Assembly (NCBI GenBank): GCA_030149295.1
Contig: JASBRV010000031.1
Location: 1-49,661, forward strand
Length of the DNA stretch: 49,661 nucleotides
Direction of reading: 5' to 3'
Origin: Bacteriovoracales bacterium
Lineage (GTDB): Bacteria; Bdellovibrionota; Bacteriovoracia; Bacteriovoracales; Bacteriovoracaceae
How positions within the stretch are numbered: the stretch's first letter is position 1; each line of letters begins with the position of its first letter. Shown piece by piece: positions 4,949-38,903 of this stretch. The notes under the pieces are model-generated. The model worked only from the letters and a program-made list of their open reading frames with translations, searched no databases and was not told the DNA's origin. The translations under genes and the position numbers were made by a program.

Positions 4949-5371
4949 ATGAATTCTCAGCAAACAACAGGGAATATTGTTACCCTTCCCAATAGCCTTA
5001 TGCTATCGCATTCAATAAAGAAAGAAAGTTATTTTAGAGGCTACTTTATTAAGAATTTCACGTTCAAAGTATTTGATCCAACCCTTGCTAAAGATTTTGA
5101 AGAGAAACTATTAAATAAAGCAATAGAAATTTCTGCGCCCTACCTAGAGGAAGCCAAAAAGGAGATTAGTAAATTTTGTGACAAAGAAGGAATCGTTATT
5201 CCAGGAATTGGGCCAAGAACGAAAATCCTAGTAGGTGAAGATAACTACGATATATTAGTCTTGGTTAAACTTCCTGCTCAAAATCTTCATATCGCTGATT
5301 TGGAGCAGGACCTTAATCGTTTTTATCTAGACTGGCGGGTAGAAGAGCTCACTAGGAAAAAGTCTGACTAG
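4949..5371 (+). CDS. MscS-like beta-domain and C-terminal fragment, no membrane part
   Basis: From the ATG at 4949 this gives 140 residues. GNIVTLPNSLMLSHSI matches the hallmark of the MscS beta domain, and the rest resembles the MscS C-terminal alpha/beta domain. The same frame is open upstream to 4847 and encodes more of the beta domain (FKEGDRIEVDEKRGFVIE, RSLLSTKILEIGPE), but it has no ATG, GTG or TTG and is closed by a TGA at 4844. An ATG at 4843 in another frame reads M-T-N-F and then TAA. Skipping one T in the TTTTT run joins it exactly to the MscS frame (see findings). No pore helices precede it, so it cannot form a channel alone. It is a decayed channel gene, a frameshifted soluble MscS-domain protein or a recoded gene. 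Its 3' end overlaps the next gene by 4 bp, convergently. Confidence 0.6.
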   Translation: MNSQQTTGNIVTLPNSLMLSHSIKKESYFRGYFIKNFTFKVFDPTLAKDFEEKLLNKAIEISAPYLEEAKKEISKFCDKEGIVIPGIGPRTKILVGEDNYDILVLVKLPAQNLHIADLEQDLNRFYLDWRVEELTRKKSD

Positions 5372-5940
5372 CGATTTTTTAAAGATTTTTCACTGCATTT
5401 ACTCGCAAACCACTTCATACGTAAAACGACTTTGCTTGAATTCGATTCACCTTCATTGGCGTGTTTAACAGTTAACTCAGAGTTGTTGTTTGCCATAACA
5501 TTGATAATTCTCGGTTTCTCACCAGGACATAAATGCTTATAGGTATATTCCTTTTTTGTGGACTTGATGACCTTTACCTTACATTTTTCATTTTTATTTT
5601 GACCAAAGTTGTAATTTTCTTTTTTTAAATCTTCTTCTTTAATGCAGACACGCATATCAGTAAGGCCATCAAGTCCTGTGGCCATGGGATTAGCTCCGCC
5701 ACCTCCGAAGGCCTTCATTTTTTCTTTAAGCATAGCCGCTTGTTCGGGTGGCATATCTGCAAACATCTTTTTCATTTTCTCTTGTTGAACTTTGAGCTGT
5801 TTCATCATTTCTTTGTTTTTAGTGAGGGGGCTTTCAATGATTTTCCATTCACCAGCCTTGACATCTATGGGGGTTATATTCGAAGCAGAGGTCGATAATG
5901 AGAAAAGAAGAATCAAATAAGAAAGAGATTTCATAAGCAC
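5368..5940 (-). CDS. exported DUF3617-like protein
   Basis: 190 residues with a signal peptide of about 19 residues (ending STSASN). It opens with the DUF3617 pattern (VKAGEWKI), has a charged Met-rich middle (KMFADMPPEQAAMLKEKM then AFGGGG), and continues with a short beta-rich domain containing MRVCIKEEDL and paired cysteines. DUF3617 proteins are small periplasmic proteins of unknown biochemical role. This is the last gene of a four-gene minus-strand operon, 16 nt after the HugZ-like gene. Family assignment comes from recalled pattern, not a search. Confidence 0.65.
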   Translation of the reverse strand: MLMKSLSYLILLFSLSTSASNITPIDVKAGEWKIIESPLTKNKEMMKQLKVQQEKMKKMFADMPPEQAAMLKEKMKAFGGGGANPMATGLDGLTDMRVCIKEEDLKKENYNFGQNKNEKCKVKVIKSTKKEYTYKHLCPGEKPRIINVMANNNSELTVKHANEGESNSSKVVLRMKWFASKCSEKSLKNR

Positions 5941-6711: not shown

Positions 6712-7398
6712 TTAGAGAGATTGAGCGAGCTCTTTTAGGAACTGCTTCATTTCTTTATTTTTTTCCAGTTTCGCAGCTGTACCAAGAGCCCTCTTCGCGA
6801 GGGTAGCATTTCCTAAGTCTTTATAGAGACTTCCAAGGCAAGCCCAAGCACGAGTAAAGCAAGGATGAATTTTTATCGCTTTTTCAAGATGGATCATGGC
6901 ACTCTGAGGTTCACCATCAATGTGGTAAATGTGACTTCCTAAGAGAAAATGGCCGTAAGCCAGATTTGGATATACTTTTAATGCTGCTTGGATTTGTTTT
7001 TCACCAGCATCATTTCTTTGTTTACTTAGGTAAGCTTTAGCATCCATGATCTCATTGATAGCCAAAGCTTTAGCATTATTAGGATCTTTTAAAAATAGGT
7101 GGGAAAGGAGTGTTTTAATTTTTGAGGGAGGGCCATCTGATTCAATTAGGGCCTCAATATAAACCATAAGGAAATTCACGTTCTCTTTGAGTTTTGGCTT
7201 ATTATGAAAAAGTTGATCGGCATTTCGTAAAACGAAAGCATAATCACCCTCTTTATATTTCTTTTTTAAATGGCTTAACAGGTGACCATCTTTGTCTTTC
7301 TTATTGGGATGATCAATTGAAGTTTTGCAATAAGGACAGACTCCAACTGAGGTATTACTAGGGGCACCACAATTTGGACAAAAGATATCAAAGCTCAT
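6712..7398 (-). CDS. zinc-ribbon and TPR protein
   Basis: 228 residues. The N-terminus is a zinc ribbon with two CxxC pairs (CPNCG and CPYCK). A helical region of TPR type follows, clearest at residues 150-215 (AYGHFLLGSHIY, AMIHLEKAIKIHP, AWACLGSLYKDLGNATLAKRAL). There is no signal peptide, so it is cytoplasmic. The ATG overlaps the stop of the upstream SPFH gene (ATGA), indicating translational coupling. Both genes carry zinc ribbons, so the two products probably act together, perhaps as a membrane-microdomain protein with a TPR adaptor. Substrate unknown. Confidence 0.75.
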   Translation of the reverse strand: MSFDIFCPNCGAPSNTSVGVCPYCKTSIDHPNKKDKDGHLLSHLKKKYKEGDYAFVLRNADQLFHNKPKLKENVNFLMVYIEALIESDGPPSKIKTLLSHLFLKDPNNAKALAINEIMDAKAYLSKQRNDAGEKQIQAALKVYPNLAYGHFLLGSHIYHIDGEPQSAMIHLEKAIKIHPCFTRAWACLGSLYKDLGNATLAKRALGTAAKLEKNKEMKQFLKELAQSL

Positions 7399-29609: not shown

Positions 29610-29803
29610 AAATAAATTTTAAAGTTCAATCGGATTTCTGTCCATGAATCATTTTTTGCCGTAAGTGCCAGTATTTACTTGGTTTTCAGGTAGGTTTTCT
29701 AAATAAGAAAATGATAAAAATTACCCGCAGGACTTGCAGGGAGGGCGATATCAAGGGAGGTTAGTCAAAAATAATGTTAAAAAGCACTATTAAGGATAGA
29801 TCT

Positions 29804-30517
29804 ATGAAAAAACTGTTGTCTTCACTTCTTCTTGTTTTAAGTTTTACGAGCCTTGGGCAAAGTCAAGTTACGACAACCTTAGAAATGAGTGATGTTTTTA
29901 AAACTGTGGATATGCTGGGAGAAAAATATGGCCAACAAAATACTCTAGTGGTTTTTGATATCGATGATACTCTTCTCGTCATTGAGCATTGTCAAAGACC
30001 AGATGGCTCTTGGACAAGAGGAATTGGCAAGCTCTTTCATTGTCCTTCGGAACATACAGAAGACATTCTTGCCAATGAACTAAGAAGAATTCAAGAGAGC
30101 GGCTATTCAACGATTGCCCTCACTGCTCGTGGGGCAAGTTTAATAAAACCGACGAAAAGAGAATTGGCCCGTAGGCATTTTCGCAAAAAGACTTTGATCT
30201 TCAAGGGCAAACCTCATCTTAAAGAATTTAATTCTGTCTCTGTACCTCGAACCAGAAGATGTAAAGCAGATGAGATTCCACCATGCCTTAAAGGCGAAGA
30301 TTCTGATAAGCCAAAATTTCTCGAAGGTGTTATGTATGCCAATGGAACACATAAAGGTTTAGCACTGAAAAGACTTCTTGAAGAACTAGGTGATACATAT
30401 TCTGCGATTGTCTTTATTGATGATAGAAAGAAAAACACTGACGACGTTCACGAGGTCTATAAAAATCAGGGTAGTGTTGAGGTTCATAACTTTCTTTATC
30501 TTCGTCATAGAGACTAA
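29804..30517 (+). CDS. exported HAD-superfamily phosphatase-like protein (DUF2608-like)
   Basis: 237 residues from the ATG at 29804, which directly precedes a signal peptide (MKKLLSSLLLVLSF) and follows AAGGATAGATCT; an in-frame ATG at 29774 is less likely. HAD motif I is VVFDIDDTLL (DxDxT), motif II ALTAR, and motif IV IVFIDDRKKN, as in acid phosphatases of the DUF2608/class B type. A CHG-type cap region with Cys residues (HCPSEH, CKADEIPPC) suggests disulphides. Probably a periplasmic phosphatase of unknown substrate. Confidence 0.8.
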   Translation: MKKLLSSLLLVLSFTSLGQSQVTTTLEMSDVFKTVDMLGEKYGQQNTLVVFDIDDTLLVIEHCQRPDGSWTRGIGKLFHCPSEHTEDILANELRRIQESGYSTIALTARGASLIKPTKRELARRHFRKKTLIFKGKPHLKEFNSVSVPRTRRCKADEIPPCLKGEDSDKPKFLEGVMYANGTHKGLALKRLLEELGDTYSAIVFIDDRKKNTDDVHEVYKNQGSVEVHNFLYLRHRD

Positions 30518-30523
30518 GAAAGA

Positions 30524-31255
30524 TTATAAGTTGAGCATTCTCCAAGAAAGACCTAGAGAAACAAATTGATTTTCTAAATCACTCTCTAGGTCCGTGCCAA
30601 AAGAGAAGTCTAAAGAAAGGTTTCGGTTAATTAAAAAAGCAAAACCGGTGTCCCAGAAAAACTGAGCTCCGCTAACTCTGTCGAGGGTATAGGCTTCTAG
30701 AAAGGGACTCCATCGACCAAATGATCTTCCCCATGAAACAATAAAGCCAGAATACTCAATGCTATCTTGAGAAAGGTTATCAAAGTTAAGGTTCATGGTA
30801 AGTGAGCCCAGTTCTCCAAGGTCATGACCGGAAGAAAGAATGGAGGCCATGCGAAGTTTATTAGGACTATCTCCTGTAGAGTCGGTGATTTGAAAAAGGG
30901 ATTGAAAAGAAAGTTGAGGAATAAACCCGTTGGCGCTTTCAATAAAGTTAATTCGCCCACCGACTTGGATGTCCCCGATTTCACTGTCAGCTTCATCAAG
31001 TCCGTTATAGTTGAGATTAGCATCGAGCTCAATATAGTCATTGATTCCATAACGAATGAAATTATTGAGAAAGAGATTACCTTCATCATTGGTCTCATCG
31101 GCTTGAAAGCCGGATTCAAATTGGAGGACTCCTTTTCCAAGGGTGCGGGATTCAATAGAGACGCCCGGACGGCCGGAGGATATATTTTCACTTACTTCAG
31201 CGAATAATGGTGTTAATGTTGAAAGTACGCTTAATAGTGTGATGACTGTTTTGAT
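30524..31255 (-). CDS. outer-membrane beta-barrel protein (transporter/MetA-like), apparent ATC start
   Basis: The frame is open from ATC (31255-31253) to the stop at 30526-30524, giving 243 residues. An excellent AAGGAGA ends 5 nt before the ATC, and the first 18 residues are a typical signal peptide (KTVITLLSVLSTLTPLFA). There is no ATG, GTG or TTG before residue 136, so a standard start would yield only a 108-residue C-terminal piece. The mature part alternates in 8-12-residue strands typical of small barrels (FESGFQADET, YIELDANLNYNGLD, IGDIQVGGRINFIES, LSLDFSFGT) and ends in FVSLGLSWRM, close to the C-terminal aromatic signature. Family resemblance: phenol-degradation MetA-type transporters. 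Non-AUG initiation or a start-codon mutation must be considered. Confidence 0.75.
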   Translation of the reverse strand: MKTVITLLSVLSTLTPLFAEVSENISSGRPGVSIESRTLGKGVLQFESGFQADETNDEGNLFLNNFIRYGINDYIELDANLNYNGLDEADSEIGDIQVGGRINFIESANGFIPQLSFQSLFQITDSTGDSPNKLRMASILSSGHDLGELGSLTMNLNFDNLSQDSIEYSGFIVSWGRSFGRWSPFLEAYTLDRVSGAQFFWDTGFAFLINRNLSLDFSFGTDLESDLENQFVSLGLSWRMLNL

Positions 31256-31323
31256 AGTGATCTCCTTGTCGATGTGTTTATTTTAACGAGGAGAAGGGGC
31301 TTTAATCAAATATTGATAATAAT

Positions 31324-32073
31324 ATGAATTTAGATGACTATACTCATGAGTTAAAAAATTTCTTTTATAATCGACTTGATGGAAAAAGTACTGCTGTCCT
31401 TTATGGCTCTGCCGTATGTGGAGATTGGACAAGGGAAAGAAGCGACATTGATGTTGCCATTTTTCTTGATTCAAGTTCTTGCATAGAGTCTTTTGAGGCG
31501 ATTCTCACTGAATGGCAGAAAAGGTTTGGAAAAGATCTTTTAGACGGATTTTTATTATTTAAAGACCAAACTGATTATTTAACAAAAAGATTTTATAATT
31601 TTTCTAATGACCCCAAGTCGTTAATGGAAAATGTTCTCCCCCCAGATATATGGCAGATCAAAAATAGGGGAAAATACATTTTTGGCTCTTCTAGGGTCAA
31701 AGATTTTCTTCCAGACCAAAAAATTAATGATTTAAAAGAATGGGCTAGGGCTAATAAAGCTAGCTACTGGATTCCTACAATAAGGGAACAATTAAAAGCA
31801 CTAGAGGTTGAATCCAGTAGCGTTAAATGTGATTTAACAGCGGCCATTTGGATTACGAGTGGGGCTGCTAGAATTAAAACGTTGGAAGATACCGGAGTCT
31901 TAAGCTCAAAAAGAGATGCTATAAAATGGTTCAGCAAGAATAATCTGAATCTTTCAGATACGGCTCAAGTATTATTGGATAACTACGATAGCGCTGATTC
32001 TTTTGCCCCCAAAATGAATAAAGAACAAGTAGCTCTTTTATATGAAAGCTGCTTAAAACTGCTTTTGGACTGA
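31324..32073 (+). CDS. nucleotidyltransferase, aminoglycoside adenylyltransferase-like
   Basis: 249 residues. The N-terminal nucleotidyltransferase fold shows the catalytic AVLYGSAVCGDWTRERSDIDVAIF (GSx10DxD), split as GSAVCGDWTRE and RSDIDVAIF. A helical C-terminal domain (about 130-249) fits the DUF4111/AadA-type substrate domain. Such enzymes adenylylate aminoglycosides or unknown amines. No resistance neighbour or cassette signal is present, so chromosomal, non-clinical homologue status is likely. It opens the accessory region and is divergent from the barrel gene. Confidence 0.72.
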   Translation: MNLDDYTHELKNFFYNRLDGKSTAVLYGSAVCGDWTRERSDIDVAIFLDSSSCIESFEAILTEWQKRFGKDLLDGFLLFKDQTDYLTKRFYNFSNDPKSLMENVLPPDIWQIKNRGKYIFGSSRVKDFLPDQKINDLKEWARANKASYWIPTIREQLKALEVESSSVKCDLTAAIWITSGAARIKTLEDTGVLSSKRDAIKWFSKNNLNLSDTAQVLLDNYDSADSFAPKMNKEQVALLYESCLKLLLD

Positions 32074-32107
32074 GAGATGAGCTTTATTTTAACAAACCTT
32101 TGAGTTT

Positions 32108-32695
32108 TTAATCACTCCATAATTTGCCGCATCTCTTGTTAAGGTCTTCAGGGAATTTTAAAGAAAAGGCTATTGGTGCTTTAGATAATTTTTCTTTTAA
32201 TTTAATAAACTTACTCCCGTTGTAAAAGAGCTCTTGGTAGGACGTTTTGCATTCAACTTTTGCCTTTTTACAGTAAGTTTTAAACTTTTTGGAGGACTCT
32301 GGTGGAATATACTCACAATCCACTGACGGATCTTTTTTGGAAAAAAGCATCCTATAGAGTTTAAGTTTCTTATTTTTAATTTCAAATTTAGAAATTTCTC
32401 CCCAAGTTGTTCCGGCATCTCCACTTAGCCCACCAAGCCGTAGGTTTGGATATCCCTCTATGATTACACCGCCTAAATAGTCGTTGTGACACTGAAAGTT
32501 CAGGGTTGTGTTATCAAACTTAATAGTCAAAAAATTTTTAAATTTACTTTCGTTAGGACATTTGAGCTCCAGCTTTTTACCATCAACAATGAGGCTCTCG
32601 TGGCTAATTTCAAGGGTTTCTTTGGCAACAATGATTGAAGTTGTTGCATAGGTCTGGATGGTATGAAAAACACAAAATATCGTCAAAAATCTCAT
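32108..32695 (-). CDS. hypothetical exported protein
   Basis: 195 residues from the ATG at 32695 (an in-frame TTG at 32713 precedes it). Signal peptide residues 1-17 ([17 protein letters not shown]). The mature part is about 178 residues and beta-rich, with four to five Cys. No family recognised. There is no Shine-Dalgarno sequence before the ATG; instead TATACT (32707-32702) lies 6 nt upstream of it, so the mRNA may be leaderless or nearly so. Confidence 0.65.
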
Positions 32696-32717
32696 TGAAT
32701 TAGTATACTGCAAATTG

Positions 32718-32963
32718 ATGAAGTACTTAAGTCATCATTTTATTTTGATGGATATCCAGATGCCGGTAATGGACGGCCTTACTGCGACTAGGTTTCTTCG
32801 CGAAAGAGGTTGTAAGATTCCTATCGTCGCTAAAAATGCTGGAGTGAGTTGCTTTATTGGAGAAAACCCATCAATAAAGATACAAAAACTAAAAGAAAAT
32901 CAATTTTTTCTTTTAGATAGTGGGTCAGGAAAATTTTATAAGACTTTTTCCTCTAATGTTTGA
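32718..32963 (+). pseudogene. response-regulator receiver fragment
   Basis: An ORF of about 82 residues whose first third is the core of a receiver domain: [18 protein letters not shown] then [13 protein letters not shown], including the phosphoacceptor Asp. The usual TANA-type sequence and the rest of the fold do not follow; the last 45 residues (from KNAG) are unrelated. The N-terminal beta1-alpha1 portion is also missing. It is probably a deletion remnant of a hybrid kinase or response regulator rather than a functional gene. Confidence 0.6.
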
Positions 32964-33106
32964 AGGGAACTAAGCATTTTACTTAAGAACTTTTTAGTTC
33001 CAAAAAAAGAGAATTTCATTTTCGACGATCTCCTTTTGGTCTTGTTGATCCAAAGTCGTGAATAAAAGGTCTATATAGACTTTGAATATCAAATAGTTTT
33101 TGCTTT

Positions 33107-33397
33107 TTAGAAGATTTTATAAACTAAGAAAGCGGGCTCCTGATTTTTCAAGATATCATTTTTTGTAGTTTTGTCTGCTTTTATGACAGGGACTTCATAT
33201 TTTAGATTTATTTTAATACCAAAAAAATCAGAGCTGCTGTCATGGATTCTTAATTTGGAACTGAATACTTTTTCTACTTTTCCAGTTTTGATATTTTTAA
33301 CGTTGTAATAAAGGCTGTCGTGACTAGAACTAGATCCAAATGTGCTGAAACTGAGAAAGAAATTAAAAGCTATTGATAATAAAAACATAGTTTTCAT
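33107..33397 (-). CDS. small exported hypothetical protein
   Basis: 96 residues with a signal peptide (about residues 1-22, ending STFGSS), then a short beta-rich, Ser/Lys-rich domain (VKNIKTGKVEKVFSS, KINLKYEVPVIKAD). No Cys and no recognised family. It stands alone; the gap 33398-33678 to its right holds a bidirectional hairpin terminator and no supportable gene. Confidence 0.5.
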   Translation of the reverse strand: MKTMFLLSIAFNFFLSFSTFGSSSSHDSLYYNVKNIKTGKVEKVFSSKLRIHDSSSDFFGIKINLKYEVPVIKADKTTKNDILKNQEPAFLVYKIF

Positions 33398-33469
33398 CGA
33401 ACAAATCCAATCAAAAGATAATCTTAAGGGGATTGTAACAAGTGCCTCTATTCTATGTAACGGTGTTCA

Positions 33470-33493
33470 AAAAGCCCCTCTTTCGGGGCTTTT
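33470..33493. terminator. bidirectional intrinsic terminator
   Basis: AAAAGCCCC (33470-33478) and GGGGCTTTT (33485-33493) form a 9-bp stem with a 6-nt loop; U/A runs flank both sides. On the minus strand it ends in TTTTTGAAC, on the plus strand in TTTTGTT. No supported gene ends here on either strand, so it may mark a lost gene or a small RNA. Confidence 0.7.
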
Positions 33494-33678
33494 GTTAAGT
33501 ACTGGGATGAATAGTTCAAGTAGTTGCACTAATGATGGTCTATCCAGAAACTTAAATGAACTGTTTTTCCTCAATATCGTAATCTCTGAAGTCATTAAGT
33601 TTAGCTCTCCTAAGGCAAGGAATGAGGTGAGTTTCCTCACTGATTTTATTTTCAAAAACACGTTATTTTCAATAAGAT

Positions 33679-34188
33679 ATGCGAATGAATTATAATATTA
33701 AAGAGATAGAAAAATTAGATTTTGAACCATTTTTTGATTTAATGGGAGAAGTTGAATTAGGAAGTGAATTCAATTCCACTAACGAGAACCATAGATCCTG
33801 GCTTAAGAGAAAAATTGAATCACATTACCAACGAGGAATGTCTTTTTATGCCCTCTATGATGAAAATGAGAAGCCGGTAGGTTTCGCTTCTTTATTAATA
33901 GAGAAAGGACCAAGTGATATTTCTTACTTTAATCAAAAGGCGGAGCTATATGATATAGCTATCTTCCCAGAGCATAGGGGAAAAGGACTTGGAGGAAAAC
34001 TTCTCAAGTATATCGAAAATATTGTTAAAAAAGAAAATAGGTATTGTCTTTACATTTCAACATATGAAGGAGATCCAAAGGCCATTGGTTTTTATGAAAC
34101 AAATGGTTACTCGTTAGTTGCAACACTCCCTGATGTTCATGGGCCAAGCGATAAGGGAATAGTCTATCTTAGAAAAGTCTTTAAATAA
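33679..34188 (+). CDS. GNAT-family N-acetyltransferase
   Basis: 169 residues. The GNAT acetyl-CoA pocket is clear: beta4 LYDIAIFPEHRGKGLGGKLLKYIE contains the R/Q-x-x-G-x-G/A loop (HRGKGLGGK) and is followed by CLYISTYEGDPKAIGFYETNGY (split here), the usual motif B. The N-terminal half is the variable substrate domain. Acetyl acceptor unknown. ATG at 33679 or 33685 (codons ATG CGA ATG) are both possible starts. It lies in the accessory region and converges with the gene at 34291. Confidence 0.85.
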   Translation: MRMNYNIKEIEKLDFEPFFDLMGEVELGSEFNSTNENHRSWLKRKIESHYQRGMSFYALYDENEKPVGFASLLIEKGPSDISYFNQKAELYDIAIFPEHRGKGLGGKLLKYIENIVKKENRYCLYISTYEGDPKAIGFYETNGYSLVATLPDVHGPSDKGIVYLRKVFK

Positions 34189-34248
34189 GAAGTAACATTC
34201 TGTCTAAACAAGTGTTTCTCAATGTAAAATTGGGTATTATTGAAATAA

Positions 34249-34273
34249 AAAAGCCTCCGGAATGGAAGCTTTT
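34249..34273. terminator. bidirectional terminator between convergent genes
   Basis: AAAAGCCTCC (34249-34258) pairs with GGAAGCTTTT (34264-34273) over 10 positions with one C-A mismatch and a GGAAT loop. A/T runs flank both sides. It lies between the acetyltransferase (plus) and the exported protein (minus). Confidence 0.6.
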
Positions 34274-34290
34274 ATGAGCTCTTCTCAACT

Positions 34291-34839
34291 TTAACAACCT
34301 TTACTGGGTTTAAGATATTTAATTTTTTCTTTAACTTTTTTGGTCTTAGGATGATTTGGGTAGTTCTTTAGCCATTTTTTGTATTTTATGGTCCATCTAT
34401 TTACATCATCTTGAGTAATATCTGGGCATCCATCTGGAATCCCTCTAATTTGTTCTAAGTCAAAATCACCTAAAAGGTCATGCTGCTTATTTTTTAATTT
34501 ACTTAGCCAGTATCTACTGGGGTAATAAAGACCGCTTGGTTCATAATATAGAAAGCGATAGTTACTGCCATCTTCTAGATTTTCAAATTGCTTTATGAAG
34601 CTTAGATACTTTTTGCGATCTTTATCTTTGGCTTGCGATGAAGAATGTGCTTTTTCACCAATGATTTGGTCTATTTTATAAAGTAAGATATATTTTTCAT
34701 CTGAGTTACTTTCCTTCTTTAGTCTTGTGCTTGCTTCGATTGGATTATTTTTGTAACTCTGTTTAATCTCTGTCAAATTTGCAAATGGGTTATAGGAAAA
34801 AAACGAACAAAGTATTATTAATATTCTTTTAAAATTCAT
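34291..34839 (-). CDS. exported hypothetical protein, Lys-rich
   Basis: 182 residues from the ATG at 34839 (GGAGGAGCTTCA precedes it; an upstream in-frame start at 34869 is not needed). Signal peptide to about residue 22 (FFSYNPFANL). The mature part is highly basic, with the motifs SGLYYPSRYWLSKLKN and GIPDGCPDITQDDVNRWTIKYKKW, and a C-terminal lysine-rich tail ending PSKGC. No family recognised. It sits just outside the leftmost tRNA-tail repeat. Confidence 0.6.
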   Translation of the reverse strand: MNFKRILIILCSFFSYNPFANLTEIKQSYKNNPIEASTRLKKESNSDEKYILLYKIDQIIGEKAHSSSQAKDKDRKKYLSFIKQFENLEDGSNYRFLYYEPSGLYYPSRYWLSKLKNKQHDLLGDFDLEQIRGIPDGCPDITQDDVNRWTIKYKKWLKNYPNHPKTKKVKEKIKYLKPSKGC

Positions 34840-34921
34840 TGAAGCTCCTCCGACGTTCGGATAAGACAAGTAAGCACTTTTCCTACCATTGTAACGGAAA
34901 AGGTCCCTATAGAGTCACGAA

Positions 34922-34957
34922 TTTTTCTGGTGGGTCATTGACGTCACTAGTTGAACT
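34922..34957 (-). repeat. tRNA 3'-tail repeat A
   Basis: TTTTTCTGGTGGGTCAT (34922-34938) is identical over 17 nt to the 3' end and downstream flank of the intact tRNA gene (37644-37660): acceptor strand ATGACCC, discriminator A and CCA. It continues with a second conserved block, TTGACGTCACTAGTTGAACTC, shared with copies C and B. It directly follows the stop of the minus-strand gene at 34959. Confidence 0.75.
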
Positions 34958-34958
34958 C

Positions 34959-35372
34959 TTAATTAACTGTATTGCTAAAATCTCGAATATTTACTAACGG
35001 TTTTGTTATAAAAAAGTAAATGATCATACTGTAGAAGATTGGAAGTATGGCAACTATCATCCCTGCTGGAATTTCGGAGGAGGGTAGGTTGTTATAGTTG
35101 GTTGCAAGAAGAATAAAACCTAGAATAGAGGAAAAAAATCCAACTTGAATGCAGGTTTTACCAATCCATGATGCAATTTCAGATTTTTTACTTTCATCGG
35201 ATAGTTTCCAAAAGAGTAGGCCTTCACTTTTATATTTTGCCATGCTTAAGCCGGTTGTAATGAAAAGAACCATTAATAAAGAGGGAATATCAATAAAGGC
35301 ATAAATAGGTCCCCCTACATTTATGAAAAAAAGAATTGTGACTAGTGAAAAAAGTAAACCAAAGGCCTTCAT
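34959..35372 (-). CDS. small integral membrane protein
   Basis: 137 residues from the ATG at 35372 (TTGGAGAAATTT precedes it; a TTG at 35384 was also considered). Four hydrophobic helices are visible: GLLFSLVTILFFINV, DIPSLLMVLFITTGL, GFFSSILGFILLAT and MIVAILPIFYSMIIYFF, with a charged loop (KYKSEGLLFWKLSDESKKSE) between the second and third. No family recognised. It is bounded by repeats A and C and may be a module carried by the array. Confidence 0.6.
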   Translation of the reverse strand: MKAFGLLFSLVTILFFINVGGPIYAFIDIPSLLMVLFITTGLSMAKYKSEGLLFWKLSDESKKSEIASWIGKTCIQVGFFSSILGFILLATNYNNLPSSEIPAGMIVAILPIFYSMIIYFFITKPLVNIRDFSNTVN

Positions 35373-35493
35373 AAATTTCTCCAATTAGCTAGCGCATAGT
35401 TAAATAAGAATATTTTACTATTTTTTGTCAGAGTATATATAAGGAAAATTTTTCATCAAAAGGGGCCGGTTTAATTTTGGCTTTTGCCAATTT

Positions 35494-35524
35494 GGGAAGG
35501 GCATTGATGTCACTAGTTGAACTC
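35494..35524 (-). repeat. tRNA 3'-tail repeat C, degenerate acceptor
   Basis: CATTGATGTCACTAGTTGAACTC (35502-35524) matches repeat A in 22 of 23 positions. The acceptor/CCA part to its left (GGGAAGGG) has decayed relative to TGGTGGGT. Same orientation as A, B, D and the tRNA. It lies 17 bp past the stop of the Rha-like gene. Confidence 0.65.
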
Positions 35525-35541
35525 ATTCGTAAACTTATCTG

Positions 35542-36018
35542 TTAGACGTTTTCTTTCATTCTTGTGCGGTAATATCCCTTTAGGGCTCCAACCTGATTGT
35601 CTGTTAAGCCTTCAACATAAGTTTTAAGGATGAAAAAACGATAAAGTATCTCTGCTGAAATTCTTCTTGCTTTGGGTGTATTTATGTAGAGAAGGAGGAG
35701 GCTAAGTCCAAATTCGGTGATATCGACTTTTCGCAGTTTCCTCTCCTTTCCTTTTGCACCTCCTAAGTACTTGTTTTCTATGAAGTTTTTATTGAGCCCA
35801 AGTTTGGGCTCAATAGAAAGTTCATCAATGCACTTATCTATGGCCCTCAAAATATGTTTATGTTGAACTTCAAAATGCTGAGAAATCTTGAGTGAGTCCG
35901 TTACTGGTCCAAAGGGAGTATCTCTTATCCATACATCACTCATGATATGTTCGTTGACGAGATCTTTAAGTCTAGGTGGTCTTGTTTCAAATGGTTTATC
36001 GATTCTGAAGTCGTTCAT
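35542..36018 (-). CDS. phage Rha-type regulatory protein
   Basis: 158 residues from the ATG at 36018 (AAAGGAGAATTT before it; an in-frame start at 36048 is less likely). The phage Rha domain spans about 35-135: VTDSLKISQHFEVQHKHILRAI, an NFIENKYLGG-type segment, then KVDITEFGLSLLLLYINTP and ARRISAEILYRFF. Rha-family proteins are prophage or satellite regulators that act on host or helper functions. This is the only clear phage gene in the array and suggests that at least one module came from a phage or phage satellite. Confidence 0.75.
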   Translation of the reverse strand: MNDFRIDKPFETRPPRLKDLVNEHIMSDVWIRDTPFGPVTDSLKISQHFEVQHKHILRAIDKCIDELSIEPKLGLNKNFIENKYLGGAKGKERKLRKVDITEFGLSLLLLYINTPKARRISAEILYRFFILKTYVEGLTDNQVGALKGYYRTRMKENV

Positions 36019-36120
36019 AAATTCTCCTTTTGGGAGTTTTAAGAACATTGTTGCGATATGTATTCAATATAGATTTAGTGTAGTGAAGTTGAAACAGGCG
36101 TCCAGTGATTCTTCGGCATA

Positions 36121-36150
36121 AAAAAGCCATCTTAGAAAAGACGGCTTTTT
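36121..36150 (-). terminator. terminator attached to tRNA-tail repeat B
   Basis: AAAAGCC-A-TCTT (36122-36133) pairs with AAGA-C-GGCTTTT (36138-36149), one mismatch, with T/A runs both sides. The same terminator with the same orientation, almost base for base, precedes repeat D (37428-37454). On the minus strand it would end a tRNA transcript reading out of repeat B. Confidence 0.7.
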
Positions 36151-36151
36151 C

Positions 36152-36186
36152 TTTTTGGTGGGTCATTGATGTCGCTAGTTAAACTT
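36152..36186 (-). repeat. tRNA 3'-tail repeat B
   Basis: TGGTGGGTCAT (36156-36166) is the exact acceptor/CCA tail of the intact tRNA, followed by TGATGTCGCTAGTTAAACTTG, which matches repeats A and C at about 16 of 21 positions. It is preceded by the terminator at 36121-36150, as in repeat D. Confidence 0.75.
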
Positions 36187-36394
36187 GTAACCTATCGGAA
36201 ATAGAAAGGTTTGGAAGGGATTGGTTTTGCGAAATTCTATTTCGATATGCTAAGGAATGTAGGGTTCATACTAAACGGTTTGAGGGTCACATAGGTAAAA
36301 AAACAGATATCATTAAAAAAATTTTTATTCACATATTATCTTTATTGACGATTTTAGGTGCCTTCTTAGCCCTTATTCAGGATATTCTTAGTAA

Positions 36395-37276
36395 ATGAAA
36401 ACTATATTACTTATTCTCGCCGTTCTTCTGATGAATAGCTGTTCTTCTCAACGAGCAACTGGTCATACATCATACTCTATTCAAACACTTAATAATTGTG
36501 AGGATAGTGAGTTTGAGTTGATTCTAAAAAAGTGGCGACCTTACCTCTCTGCACCTATTGCTGAGGCTCTTACTGTTAGGGAGAGGTGGTTTATTCGTGA
36601 TGGGGTTGTCTTTCTTAGGGGGCCTATAAAAAAGGGAGATTATAAATACTTCCTTAAGCTAGTGAACTCAGAAGCCAATGATTTACGAAAATTGAATGTA
36701 ATTTCATTTGGGGGGGTTACCATTGATGCCAGCCTAATTGGAGAATATATTTATAATCAAAACTATATCGTTGCAGTCGCTGGCCCTTGCTTATCTTCTT
36801 GTGCCAATTACCTTTTTGGATTTTCCAAGAATAGAGTTTTTTTAAAAGATGGCTATGTCGGATTTCATGGTAATCATACGGCCGCGGTCAAAGAAGCAGG
36901 GGGTATTGATAAATTTCTCGATACTATTAAGAAAAACTTTAAAAAAGTAAAAACAAGCGATGAGAAATTAAATAAACAAGAAGTCGAAAAAATTCTTACT
37001 CGCATCAAAAGTGAAAATATTGAAGTTATGGAAAAAGAGAAAAAATACTTTTCTTACCATTCTATTCCTCAATCATTTTTTGATAAGACACAGGAGCCCC
37101 AAAAGGGCTATGAGGGTGATGAAAGTTCTATAGATTATATCGCCCTGTATCCTAGAGTAAGTGCTTTGGAATCCTTAGGGTTTAAAATTACCTCTGGTGA
37201 GCCTAATCTCTGTCGTGCTCAAAACTTAATTAGTAAAATTAGGAAGAAACAATCTGCGATATTAATCGCTCACTAG
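36395..37276 (+). CDS. lipoprotein with ClpP/crotonase-like serine protease domain
   Basis: 293 residues. Lipobox LLMNSCSS makes Cys16 the lipidated residue. The domain from about 95 to 190 resembles the periplasmic ClpP-like group (COG3904 type): strand LNVISFGGVTIDASLIGEYI, the serine block VAVAGPCLSSCANYLFGFS, and the histidine block DGYVGFHGNHT. Ser in CLSSCANY and His in FHGNH are placed as in ClpP/SPP-A relatives. A coiled-coil, Lys-rich stretch follows (NKQEVEKILTRIKSENIEVM). Start ATG at 36395 overlaps the TGA of a putative membrane peptide frame (ATGA). The gene is bounded by repeats B and D. Confidence 0.7.
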   Translation: MKTILLILAVLLMNSCSSQRATGHTSYSIQTLNNCEDSEFELILKKWRPYLSAPIAEALTVRERWFIRDGVVFLRGPIKKGDYKYFLKLVNSEANDLRKLNVISFGGVTIDASLIGEYIYNQNYIVAVAGPCLSSCANYLFGFSKNRVFLKDGYVGFHGNHTAAVKEAGGIDKFLDTIKKNFKKVKTSDEKLNKQEVEKILTRIKSENIEVMEKEKKYFSYHSIPQSFFDKTQEPQKGYEGDESSIDYIALYPRVSALESLGFKITSGEPNLCRAQNLISKIRKKQSAILIAH

Positions 37277-37427
37277 CTTGAATATGTGCTAGGAAGTCGT
37301 ATTACAAATGCCTGAACCGAGCTTACGGATATAAGTCGTTTAAAAACTAACGGTTGAAAGTTCTATATGCTTGTACTTGAAGGGTTGAGTGCGGTGCAGT
37401 CCACCATTAAGGGAGAAGAGGCCATAA

Positions 37428-37454
37428 AAAAGCCATCTTAGAAAGACGGCTTTT
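37428..37454 (-). terminator. terminator attached to tRNA-tail repeat D
   Basis: AAAAGCC-A-TCTT (37428-37439) with AAGA-C-GGCTTTT (37443-37454), followed on the minus strand by A/U runs. It is near-identical to the terminator at 36121-36150, including the flanking CATAAAAAA, showing that the two tail copies share a common origin. Confidence 0.7.
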
Positions 37455-37460
37455 CTTTTT

Positions 37461-37480
37461 TGTGGGTCATGCTGGATTTG
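37461..37480 (-). repeat. tRNA 3'-tail repeat D (attachment-site-like)
   Basis: GTGGGTCATGCTGGATTTG (37462-37480) is identical over 19 nt to the intact tRNA (37652-37670), covering the 3' half of the T-arm and the acceptor strand; the final CA of CCA is not conserved. Such duplications of the tRNA 3' end are typical of att sites left by tyrosine-recombinase elements. Confidence 0.85.
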
Positions 37481-37589
37481 GTTTCATGCGGTCGGCATCG
37501 TGCCTCCCTTTTCGACCCGGCTCAGTCGCTTCCATTCGCTTCACGCTCACTCTTCGCCTAGCGGCGCGCTCCTTTACTTCAAATCCAAC
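37471..37589. other. 63% GC insert bounded by short inverted repeats
   Basis: Positions 37481-37572 contain 58 G/C in 92 bases, against about 38% around it. It is bounded by GCTGGATTTG (37471-37480) and its near-complement CAAATCCAAC (37580-37589). On the minus strand one open frame encodes an Arg-rich peptide (VKERAARRRVSVKRME, then TEPGRKGRHDADRMKPNPA) ending in a TGA supplied by the tRNA-tail repeat. No family recognised. It lies between repeat D and the tRNA terminator. Confidence 0.55.
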
Positions 37590-37596
37590 AATCCCC

Positions 37597-37648
37597 AAAA
37601 AAAAACCTCTCAGAATATTCACTTACGTTCATATCCTAAGAGGTTTTT
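37597..37648 (-). terminator. terminator of the tRNA gene
   Basis: On the minus strand AAAAACCTCT (37648-37639) pairs with AGAGGTTTTT (37610-37601) and is followed by a run of T (9 T in total, 37605-37597). The loop is 28 nt. It begins immediately after the tRNA CCA end. Confidence 0.7.
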
Positions 37649-37649
37649 C

Positions 37650-37726
37650 TGGTGGGTCATGCTGGATTTGAACCAGCGACCATCCGGTTATGAGCCGGAG
37701 GCTCTAACCAACTGAGCTAATGACCC
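37650..37726 (-). tRNA. tRNA with CAT anticodon (Met elongator or Ile2)
   Basis: 77 nt folding as a full cloverleaf: acceptor GGGTCAT/ATGACCC, D-arm GCTCAGTTGGTTAGAGC, anticodon stem TCCGG/CCGGA with loop CTCATAA, T-arm GCTGG-TTCAAAT-CCAGC, discriminator A and encoded CCA. The CAT anticodon with GGCTCATAACC context resembles tRNA-Ile2 (lysidine-modified), but elongator Met cannot be excluded. It is the insertion point of the accessory modules to its left, four of which carry copies of its 3' end. Confidence 0.93.
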
Positions 37727-37809
37727 TCAATTGATAGGGAACTAAAATAACTTAACTGTCCTCGGTTGGTAAAGTGTCGAAAGGAGCTTTCGCGTGCTAA
37801 GATCTCAAT

Positions 37810-38598
37810 ATGTCGAAAAATTTTTGTCGCTATTCAGCAACTGGAAATACATTTCTCATTTTTGATAACCGAAGCGGTGAGTTATCAGACCTTCCGAGAG
37901 AGACCTATGCCTCTTGGTGTAAGGATCACCAAGTGGATGGCCTACTTTTTGTGGAGCCTCCGCGGGGAGAAGATTTTGATTTTCACATGCGCTATCTGAA
38001 TGCTGATGGTGGAGAGGTGGAGATGTGTGGTAACGGAGCACGAGCGATTCTTCACTTTGTTTCCCGTGAATTAAAAGTCATCCCCAGAAAAGACTCTTAT
38101 CAATTCAGTACTCAAAAGGGAGTTTATTGGGGCAAAGGAAGTGAAAATTTTCCCGTTCAAATGACGGAAATTTATGATTGGAATAAATTTAATGTCTCCG
38201 ACCTTTTTTCGTCCTCATTTTCTTACTATCTCAATACAGGTGTGCCTCATACTATTTTTGAAGTTGATTTCCTTAAAGAAGTTGATCTTCAAAAGATAGG
38301 CTCTGAAATTCGATATAACCCCCGCTTTGAAAAGGGCGTCAATGTGAATTTCTTTAAAGTAATAAAACCAAATGAAGTCTCCATGCGTACCTATGAAAGG
38401 GGAGTTGAGGGGGAAACACTTAGTTGCGGAACTGGTGCAACTGCGGTTGCTCTCTCTCTAGCAAAGGAGAGGGGCTGGGATTCTCCTATTAAAGTTCACG
38501 TACCTGGAGGAGAGCTTTCTATTTCTTTTGATTGTGATTTTGAAAAAGTCTATTTGGAAGGACCTGTCGATTTGTTAGAAAGAAGCTCTTTAGCATAA
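37810..38598 (+). CDS. dapF: diaminopimelate epimerase
   Basis: 262 residues; interconverts LL- and meso-diaminopimelate for lysine and peptidoglycan. The two catalytic cysteines are in EMCGNGARA and LSCGTGATAVAL. GNTFLIFD near the N-terminus (in place of GNDFVVVD) and RTYERGVEGETLSCGTG (split) match the family. It is monocistronic; its last 49 bp overlap the convergent VanZ-like gene. No other lysine gene is near. Confidence 0.95.
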   Translation: MSKNFCRYSATGNTFLIFDNRSGELSDLPRETYASWCKDHQVDGLLFVEPPRGEDFDFHMRYLNADGGEVEMCGNGARAILHFVSRELKVIPRKDSYQFSTQKGVYWGKGSENFPVQMTEIYDWNKFNVSDLFSSSFSYYLNTGVPHTIFEVDFLKEVDLQKIGSEIRYNPRFEKGVNVNFFKVIKPNEVSMRTYERGVEGETLSCGTGATAVALSLAKERGWDSPIKVHVPGGELSISFDCDFEKVYLEGPVDLLERSSLA

Positions 38599-38903
38599 AA
38601 AAGCGCGAGCCCTAAAAATGCGCCCAAGGAATTACCCAGCATATCGCCGTAGGAAAAACCACGTCCAAAATAAGGCTGGATTATCTCGACCAAAATACCT
38701 TGAAGAATGAGACCTACTAAAACCTTAAGAGAGGAAAATCCTGTTAGGCGAAAAGCACTATAAAGAAACAAGTAGATAAGCGCGTGAATTTCGGCATGAC
38801 CCGAGTTCTCGATAAGTTCGATATCACTCTTAATAGGAGCTAAGAAAGCGATTAGGGCGAAGGTGTTGGCAATCCATGCATAGATCGGGGATAATTTGAA
38901 CAT
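38550..38903 (-). CDS. VanZ-like membrane protein
   Basis: 117 residues with three to four hydrophobic helices (YAWIANTFALIAFLAP, IHALIYLFLYSAF, LKVLVGLILQGILVEIIQP, GNSLGAFLGLALFY). The conserved VanZ-type features are GHAEIHALIY near residue 38 and the FGRGFSYGDMLGNSLG motif near the C-terminus. VanZ relatives affect teicoplanin resistance or have no known function. It overlaps dapF by 49 bp on the opposite strand and starts back to back with the gene at 38902. Confidence 0.75.
   Translation of the reverse strand: MFKLSPIYAWIANTFALIAFLAPIKSDIELIENSGHAEIHALIYLFLYSAFRLTGFSSLKVLVGLILQGILVEIIQPYFGRGFSYGDMLGNSLGAFLGLALFYAKELLSNKSTGPSK

Follow-up and report, generated by a model that had tools for sequence, protein, structure and literature searches.

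Small gene modules between tRNA-Met tail copies in a variable island of a Bacteriovoracales genome

The window considered here is a stretch of 49,661 nt from contig JASBRV010000031.1 of a Bacteriovoracales bacterium, a relative of marine predatory bacteria whose genome comprises 4.0 Mb in 140 contigs. In this window dapF is adjoined by a tRNA-Met(CAT) gene (37650-37726, minus strand; ARAGORN), and left of the tRNA lies a variable island (30518-37649), bounded on its other side by the last gene in common with the sister species G005 (29774-30517). An earlier note, made from the sequence alone, had described four partial copies of the 3' tail of this tRNA (A, C, B and D, from left to right) dividing the island into short modules, and had proposed repeated site-specific capture. 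The locus is an insertion hotspot, and its junctions probably belong to small elements moved by large serine recombinases (LSRs).

Tail copies, arms and cargo of the island

Exact matches to the tRNA tail extend over 19 nt in D, 17 nt including the flank in A, 11 nt in B and 5 nt in C, compared with a maximum of 13 nt in 500 shuffles of positions 34000-37640. The lengths for A and D agree with the earlier note and are above chance on their own, and B exceeds chance only together with a block common to A and a hairpin common to D. As a tail copy, C is not beyond chance and falls away; A, B and D stand, D being of another kind (see below). The putative attB half-site, TGGTGG-N14-GAAC, is the 3' end of the tRNA itself (37650-37673).

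Junction A (34922-34957, plus strand) consists of the tail core TGGTGGGTCAT (34928-34938) and the arm TGACGTCACTAGTTGAACT, in which GAAC stands 19 nt after TGGTGG. Junction B (36156-36185, plus strand) has the same core followed by the arm TGATGTCGCTAGTTAAACT, with AAAC where GAAC would be expected. Both are hybrids, made of 11 nt of tRNA-Met tail and then a foreign, non-tRNA arm. Junction C (35494-35523, plus strand) combines a degenerate core, GGGAAG (35494-35499), with an intact arm block (35504-35523), and belongs to the series solely through this non-tRNA block common to A and B. The block, TTGAYGTCRCTAGTTRAACT, had been singled out in the earlier note as a second, non-tRNA repeat; it has exactly three copies in the 4.0-Mb genome, which are not dispersed but all lie within 1.25 kb at this locus. 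With three mismatches allowed, one further place in the genome was found, and a backwards control gave two. The sister species G005 carries one exact copy at the same tRNA; it lies 1.1 kb to the left, and a similar hairpin precedes it. A pseudo-tRNA reading of A, B and C was dropped because the block is not tRNA. An integron attC reading was set aside on visual inspection only: the arm has GTTRRRY-like letters and no second box was seen by eye.

D is a different kind of object and lies outside the att series. It forms a unit of ~146 nt (37460-37606, minus strand; fold z -2.6) in which a copy of the tRNA tail, a G+C-rich spacer of ~100 nt and an inverted tail copy follow one another, after which comes the terminator-like hairpin of the tRNA itself (37599-37649, minus strand; -26.6 kcal/mol, z -8.6). 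The spacer occurs in 2 of 129 family genomes, namely those of the window and G005. A hairpin with a T run, terminator-like in the sense of the tRNA, also lies left of B (36120-36151, minus strand; -17.7 kcal/mol, z -5.2), and a near-copy of it lies left of D (37426-37456, minus strand; -16.2 kcal/mol, z -4.2). These two hairpins come from folding; a consensus terminator scan gave three sites against 2.7 expected, none of them at B or D.

The three modules each have one main cargo gene. Module 1 holds a sole open reading frame (ORF) for a protein of 141 aa, by appearance a membrane protein (34959-35384, minus strand), whose stop codon (34959) is 1 nt from arm A. Module 2 encodes a Rha-family regulator (35542-36048, minus strand; PF09669, E=1.2e-14) with its stop codon 18 nt from arm C, which bears out the remark in the earlier note that two genes end beside repeats. 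Module 3 encodes a putative lipoprotein of 293 aa (36395-37276, plus strand) found in the genome of the window only (1/129), with no match at E<=1e-8 in the 128 other family genomes. The Rha assignment of the earlier note held; for its 'ClpP-like' protein and its membrane protein, Pfam gave no match at E<=0.01.

Variation of the locus among relatives

Using ORFs of at least 90 aa, the region left of the tRNA was compared between the window and the stretches of 20 relatives, a comparison between species rather than between strains of the window's species. The tRNA-Met(CAT) gene lies left of dapF in 18 of the 20 relatives and is absent there in G020 and G007. A pair of genes resembling what we take to be aroB and aroA was reached in 10 of the 21 stretches. 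In G014 only 22 bp separate the end of the aroA-like gene from the tRNA, which makes this an empty site. G001 has ~3 kb at this place, G011 7.0 kb, G024 7.6 kb and G010 8.8 kb; the window, G005, G015, G006 and G004 have 12-14 kb. Within the same genus, a few genes beside aroA are in common (including what we take to be an ABC transporter and an epimerase), and the content nearer the tRNA differs. Among the island ORFs of the window, rha alone has a homolog (E<=1e-6) in the stretches of the 20 relatives, and no fixed genes in fixed order were found between species.

An empty and an occupied site can be compared directly in two genomes, G003 and that of locus L151. Their flanks match through TGGTGGGGCAT and diverge just after the core, where the tRNA follows in G003, whereas L151 has TGAGATCACTAAATGAACTC, an arm resembling those of A and B (the tRNA of L151 lies beyond the stretch compared). 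Other genera have junctions like A and B as well, with different cargo. The capture at the tRNA tail proposed in the earlier note is borne out by the empty site of G014, the other fillings elsewhere, the recurring junctions and this pair.

The rha gene has copies at the same tRNA-Met in G013, G015 and G008, with 82%, 76% and 75% identity respectively, whereas dapF at these loci is 47%, 43% and 41% identical. This difference suggests that rha moved between loci. Close Rha homologs come mostly from records named Halobacteriovorax, Bacteriovorax or Bacteriovoracaceae. In L151, two rha-like genes (5001-5525 and 6823-7374, reverse complement) flank a junction, and in L150 two seem to lie close together, by eye; such pairs suggest repeated capture of one type of module.

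Sixteen modules between junctions were picked by eye, so the list is not exhaustive: three in the window, one in G005, four in G016, two in G008, one each in G018 and G023, two in G079 and one each in L159 and L152. They measure 568-2417 bp; counting non-overlapping ORFs of 60 aa or more, 11 have one and five have 2-4. Modules with rha as cargo are present in the window, G008 and G079. No LSR homolog was found in the 16 modules at E<=1. All tRNA-side ends were folded, and beside the core 9 of the 16 form a strong hairpin with a T run (C-B and B-D of the window, one of G016, both of G008, those of G018 and G023, and both of G079); the hairpin is absent from A-C of the window and from G005.

Large serine recombinases and the origin of the array

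In G021 and G074 the same tRNA beside dapF is occupied by elements of 10 kb and 15.8 kb, respectively, and in each the LSR ends on the tRNA. The two LSRs are 81% identical, and a domain search on the G074 protein found PF00239, PF07508 and PF13408 (Resolvase, Recombinase and zinc-ribbon). The far end of both elements reads TGGTGG-N13-CTAGTTGAAC, which is the core, spacing and 10-mer of A. Both attP arms were seen in the LSR elements of G074, G021 and G078. Among LSR elements at other tRNAs, the far end is convincing for G078 only; contig G000:C32 of the window's own genome offers a candidate, and the rest are ambiguous or off the contig.

The geometry of the junctions also points to LSRs. The outer recognition motif of these enzymes is placed at positions 16-24 in attP and 11-19 in attB, 5 bp further out in attP (PMC3783163). 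GAAC follows the 6-nt core TGGTGG at an offset of 14 nt in tRNA tails and 19 nt in the arms; with the centre set by the palindromic arms of G074, it occupies positions 21-24 in the arms, and in the tRNA positions 16-19. The change from 14 to 19 matches the published 5-bp shift between attB and attP. TGGTGG cores were counted to the left of 19 tRNA-Met genes, up to a distance of 14 kb, with plus denoting the tRNA-sense strand. GAAC stands at offset 19 after 9 of 114 plus-strand cores against 0.35 expected, and after 1 of 48 on the minus strand. The next-best offset, 14, has four cores, of which three belong to tail copies and one lies in a coding repeat. Three of the nine cases (A, G005 and G021) had suggested the rule; without them the count is 6 of 111 (P about 1.5e-6), or four when one is taken per locus (P about 4e-4). 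A looser pattern, TTTT..TGGTGG-N19-GAAC, matched in 71 of 129 genomes and also in many of the backwards controls, and was used only for spotting TGGTGGTCCAT-type arms, not for statistics.

LSRs are frequently found beside tRNA genes in this family. PF07508 occurs in 76 of 129 genomes, and at 18 of the best-matching 30 loci a tRNA (14) or tmRNA (4) gene lies downstream of the LSR on the opposite strand. Among closer homologs, a set that overlaps the 30, a tRNA was present at 11 of 12 loci (Met 4, Leu 5, Val 2) and none at the other. In 13 of the 18 cases GTTC stands exactly 15 nt from the end of the tRNA or tmRNA, the mirror of GAAC at offset 19, and the consensus before tRNA-Met, -Leu and -Val is close to GTTCGAATAGCTTGACAAA. 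LSRs at tRNA-Met (G074) and tRNA-Val (G078) are 79% identical. The simplest reading is that the LSR would use the CCA end and the T-loop, whose distance is constant in the tails seen. Four family LSRs (L078, L090, L094 and L095) adjoin the 3' end of the tmRNA, the tail of which has the same CCA/T-loop spacing.

At two loci the LSR frame continues through the att core into the tRNA (L043, 10920-12560 and 2373-2558; L105, 15430-17070 and 1214-1408), and at the other element end a helix-turn-helix-coding frame starts at the core in the same frame as the LSR. Integration would thus truncate the LSR, since the circular form would join both into a fusion. An att repeat within an integrase gene is no novelty, since serine-integrase elements of this kind are already reported (PMC4701971).

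On this evidence we consider it likely that the 3' end of tRNA-Met serves an LSR family as attB, and that A, B and the decayed C are junctions of small elements stacked there in trans. From the junctions, their geometry, the hotspot, the LSR elements that relatives carry on this tRNA and the recombinase-free modules, we infer both that LSRs moved the modules and the order of events. Small elements would insert one after another at the 3' end of the tRNA, each taking the place of the last four letters and the terminator of the tRNA and displacing older modules to the left, to leave a junction of older DNA, tRNA-tail core and attP arm of the element. With a hairpin beside its core, a new insertion could rebuild the CCA end of the tRNA and terminate its transcript. 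No recombinase is encoded in the modules, and the LSR of a larger element would act in trans; C would be a junction that decayed and lost its core. The array of the window is probably not mobile as it stands, because its modules show no second attP arm.

Several observations weigh against this account. The 13 nt between core and 10-mer differ between A and the arms of the LSR elements, with no match in register. In those elements CTAGTTGAAC sits inside a reading frame, so its conservation may be partly coding. A search for TGGTGG..CTAGTTRAAC gave 10 matches against 9 in the backwards control, so that a single match proves little. The offset rule has exceptions (G016 at -3802 with offset 20, G008 at -3056 and G015 at -2715), and in the window only A follows it exactly, B reading AAAC and C being without a core. 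Twelve of the 30 LSR loci have no tRNA, and GTTC at 15 nt is missing in 5 of the 18 that do have a tRNA or tmRNA (two tRNA-His, two of the four tmRNA and one tRNA-Leu). No circular, excised form of a module was seen. Measured from the right-hand core, GTTC of the small modules themselves stands at exactly 15 nt in 0 of 16 cases and at 12-14 nt in four (two of G016, L159 and L152); in 12, including all three of the window, there is none within 32 nt. Their second arm, where present, is near but off the LSR position, and it is absent in the window. Finally, the window's own genome has no G074-type LSR, and its two full-length LSRs sit at tRNA-Asp (G000:C22:6448-8171, L112) and tRNA-Asn (G000:C32:32331-34028, L111).

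In the latter, GTTC is 15 nt from the tRNA, and TGGCTG-N19-GAAC at a distance of 14.3 kb is a candidate for the far end. Neither suits the role of driver: where they align with the G074 LSR, the G000:C22 and G000:C32 proteins are 21% and 31% identical to it, respectively, and the arms seen misfit. That the window contig carries no recombinase, as the earlier note stated, agrees with the matches in this genome, since none of its three LSR matches lies there, nor does any of the 10 of 13 PF00589 matches listed.

The same architecture could have been produced by tyrosine integrases, the enzyme type named in the earlier note, acting as in tycheposons, satellites or additive islands, with the 11-nt tail match as the tyrosine core and the block as an arm-type site. 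These enzymes are the usual users of tRNA genes and are plentiful here, PF00589 being present in 39 of 39 genomes; A and B have 11 nt in common with the tRNA, above what an LSR needs, and the small modules have no exact LSR-type second arm. However, those recombinases that were found to end on this tRNA are LSRs, no PF00589 protein occurs at the compared tRNA-Met loci among the matches listed, the core match in G008 is only 6 nt (TGGTGGTCCAT against TGGTGGAGCAT), and the shift of +5 has no reason under a tyrosine model. The geometry and the neighbouring enzymes point to LSRs, so that the enzyme named earlier is probably wrong, and we regard tyrosine integration as rather unlikely. In G024, three tyrosine-integrase matches stand in a row on one strand (G024:C19:35410-37774).

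Less probable again is that nothing here was mobile, and that pieces of the tRNA tail with its terminator were duplicated in place, rtT-like or through slippage, and retained as terminators, with the genes between them incidental. The plan of D beside a terminator-like hairpin, the two tandem units of its kind in G021 and the near-identity of the B and D hairpins speak for duplication, and the A/B/C block is not tRNA, similar junctions accompany different cargo in other genera, rha identity stands at 75-82% against 41-47% for dapF, and G003 and L151 form an empty and occupied pair, all of which speak against it. A dispersed repeat family of the repetitive extragenic palindrome (REP) or miniature inverted-repeat transposable element (MITE) type, present here by chance, would account for short intergenic repeats, some of them beside hairpins, yet three copies in 4.0 Mb that all lie within 1.25 kb make this highly improbable.

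Beyond the proposed insertion of LSR-moved elements at tRNA-Met, a wider reading is put forward tentatively. A clade of LSRs from relatives of Halobacteriovorax and Bacteriovorax might read the CCA end and T-loop GTTCRA of tRNA and tmRNA genes, at a fixed distance, as attB, and might in this way move from tRNA to tRNA; the sites seen are Met, Leu, Val, Arg, Ala and tmRNA, and Asn in the window's own genome. The same clade might also stack recombinase-free, mostly one-gene cassettes with attP half-sites, often with a terminator, as an integron-like array of serine recombination on a tRNA.

Relation to known systems and further repeats

Islands anchored at tRNA genes are usually attributed to tyrosine integrases, and LSRs are not usually linked to tRNA genes. 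In staphylococci, composite arrays of the staphylococcal cassette chromosome (SCC) are built at rlmH by the Ccr serine recombinases; the elements lie in tandem, some of them lack a recombinase, and they meet at serine-recombinase half-sites. The SCC target is a protein gene and the elements are larger; here the target is tRNA-Met and the contig has no PF07508 match. Integron arrays consist mostly of modules with a single gene, all joined at the same kind of site. Unlike these, the present array is anchored at a tRNA.

The tRNA-Lys island of 'Ca. Methylopumilus' has repeats of the last 20 nt of the tRNA and variable genes mostly of unknown function, as described in the part of PMC10872708 used here. 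Like that additive island, the present locus has recurring direct repeats of a tRNA tail (A, B and D, not C) and one site with variable modules between species; unlike it, LSR-type features are found here, an LSR or attP-type arm not being mentioned in that part of the source. Tycheposons, as summarised in the same part of PMC10872708, likewise carry cargo at tRNA genes, once at tRNA-Met, and differ by their tyrosine recombinase and size of 4-200 kb. Among the prophages of M. abscessus, tyrosine integrases have 15 attB sites, 10 of which overlap tRNA genes, while serine integrases are used by two clusters (PMC8092301). The term 'tRNA' is counted zero times for an LSR survey (PMC10083194), and no description of LSR half-sites or junctions dividing a tRNA-anchored array was found in listings of open-licence papers. 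Arrays of tRNA-tail repeats are thus already known, and LSR-type junctions on tRNAs were not found described. If serine recombinases build such arrays, module borders, insertion order and enzyme type would be predictable from sequence where no recombinase remains. An LSR with a tRNA end as attB would be of practical interest because every bacterium has that sequence.

The D unit is reminiscent of the rtT repeats of E. coli tyrT, in which the 3' tail of the tRNA is repeated behind the tRNA gene. Both repeat a tRNA tail, and D is closed by an inverted tail copy; RtT of Rfam had no match at E<=5 in 33000-38600. Units of tail, spacer and inverted tail, as at 37460-37606 in the window, are also present in L035 (18738-18880) and L043 (1915-2385). 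By eye, the two tandem units of G021 follow the same plan as D with another sequence, and G004 and G015 have pieces resembling the D unit near the tRNA. In G001, several tandem repeats of ~50 bp lie beside the same tRNA (L045, reverse complement, ~380-130 bp to its left).

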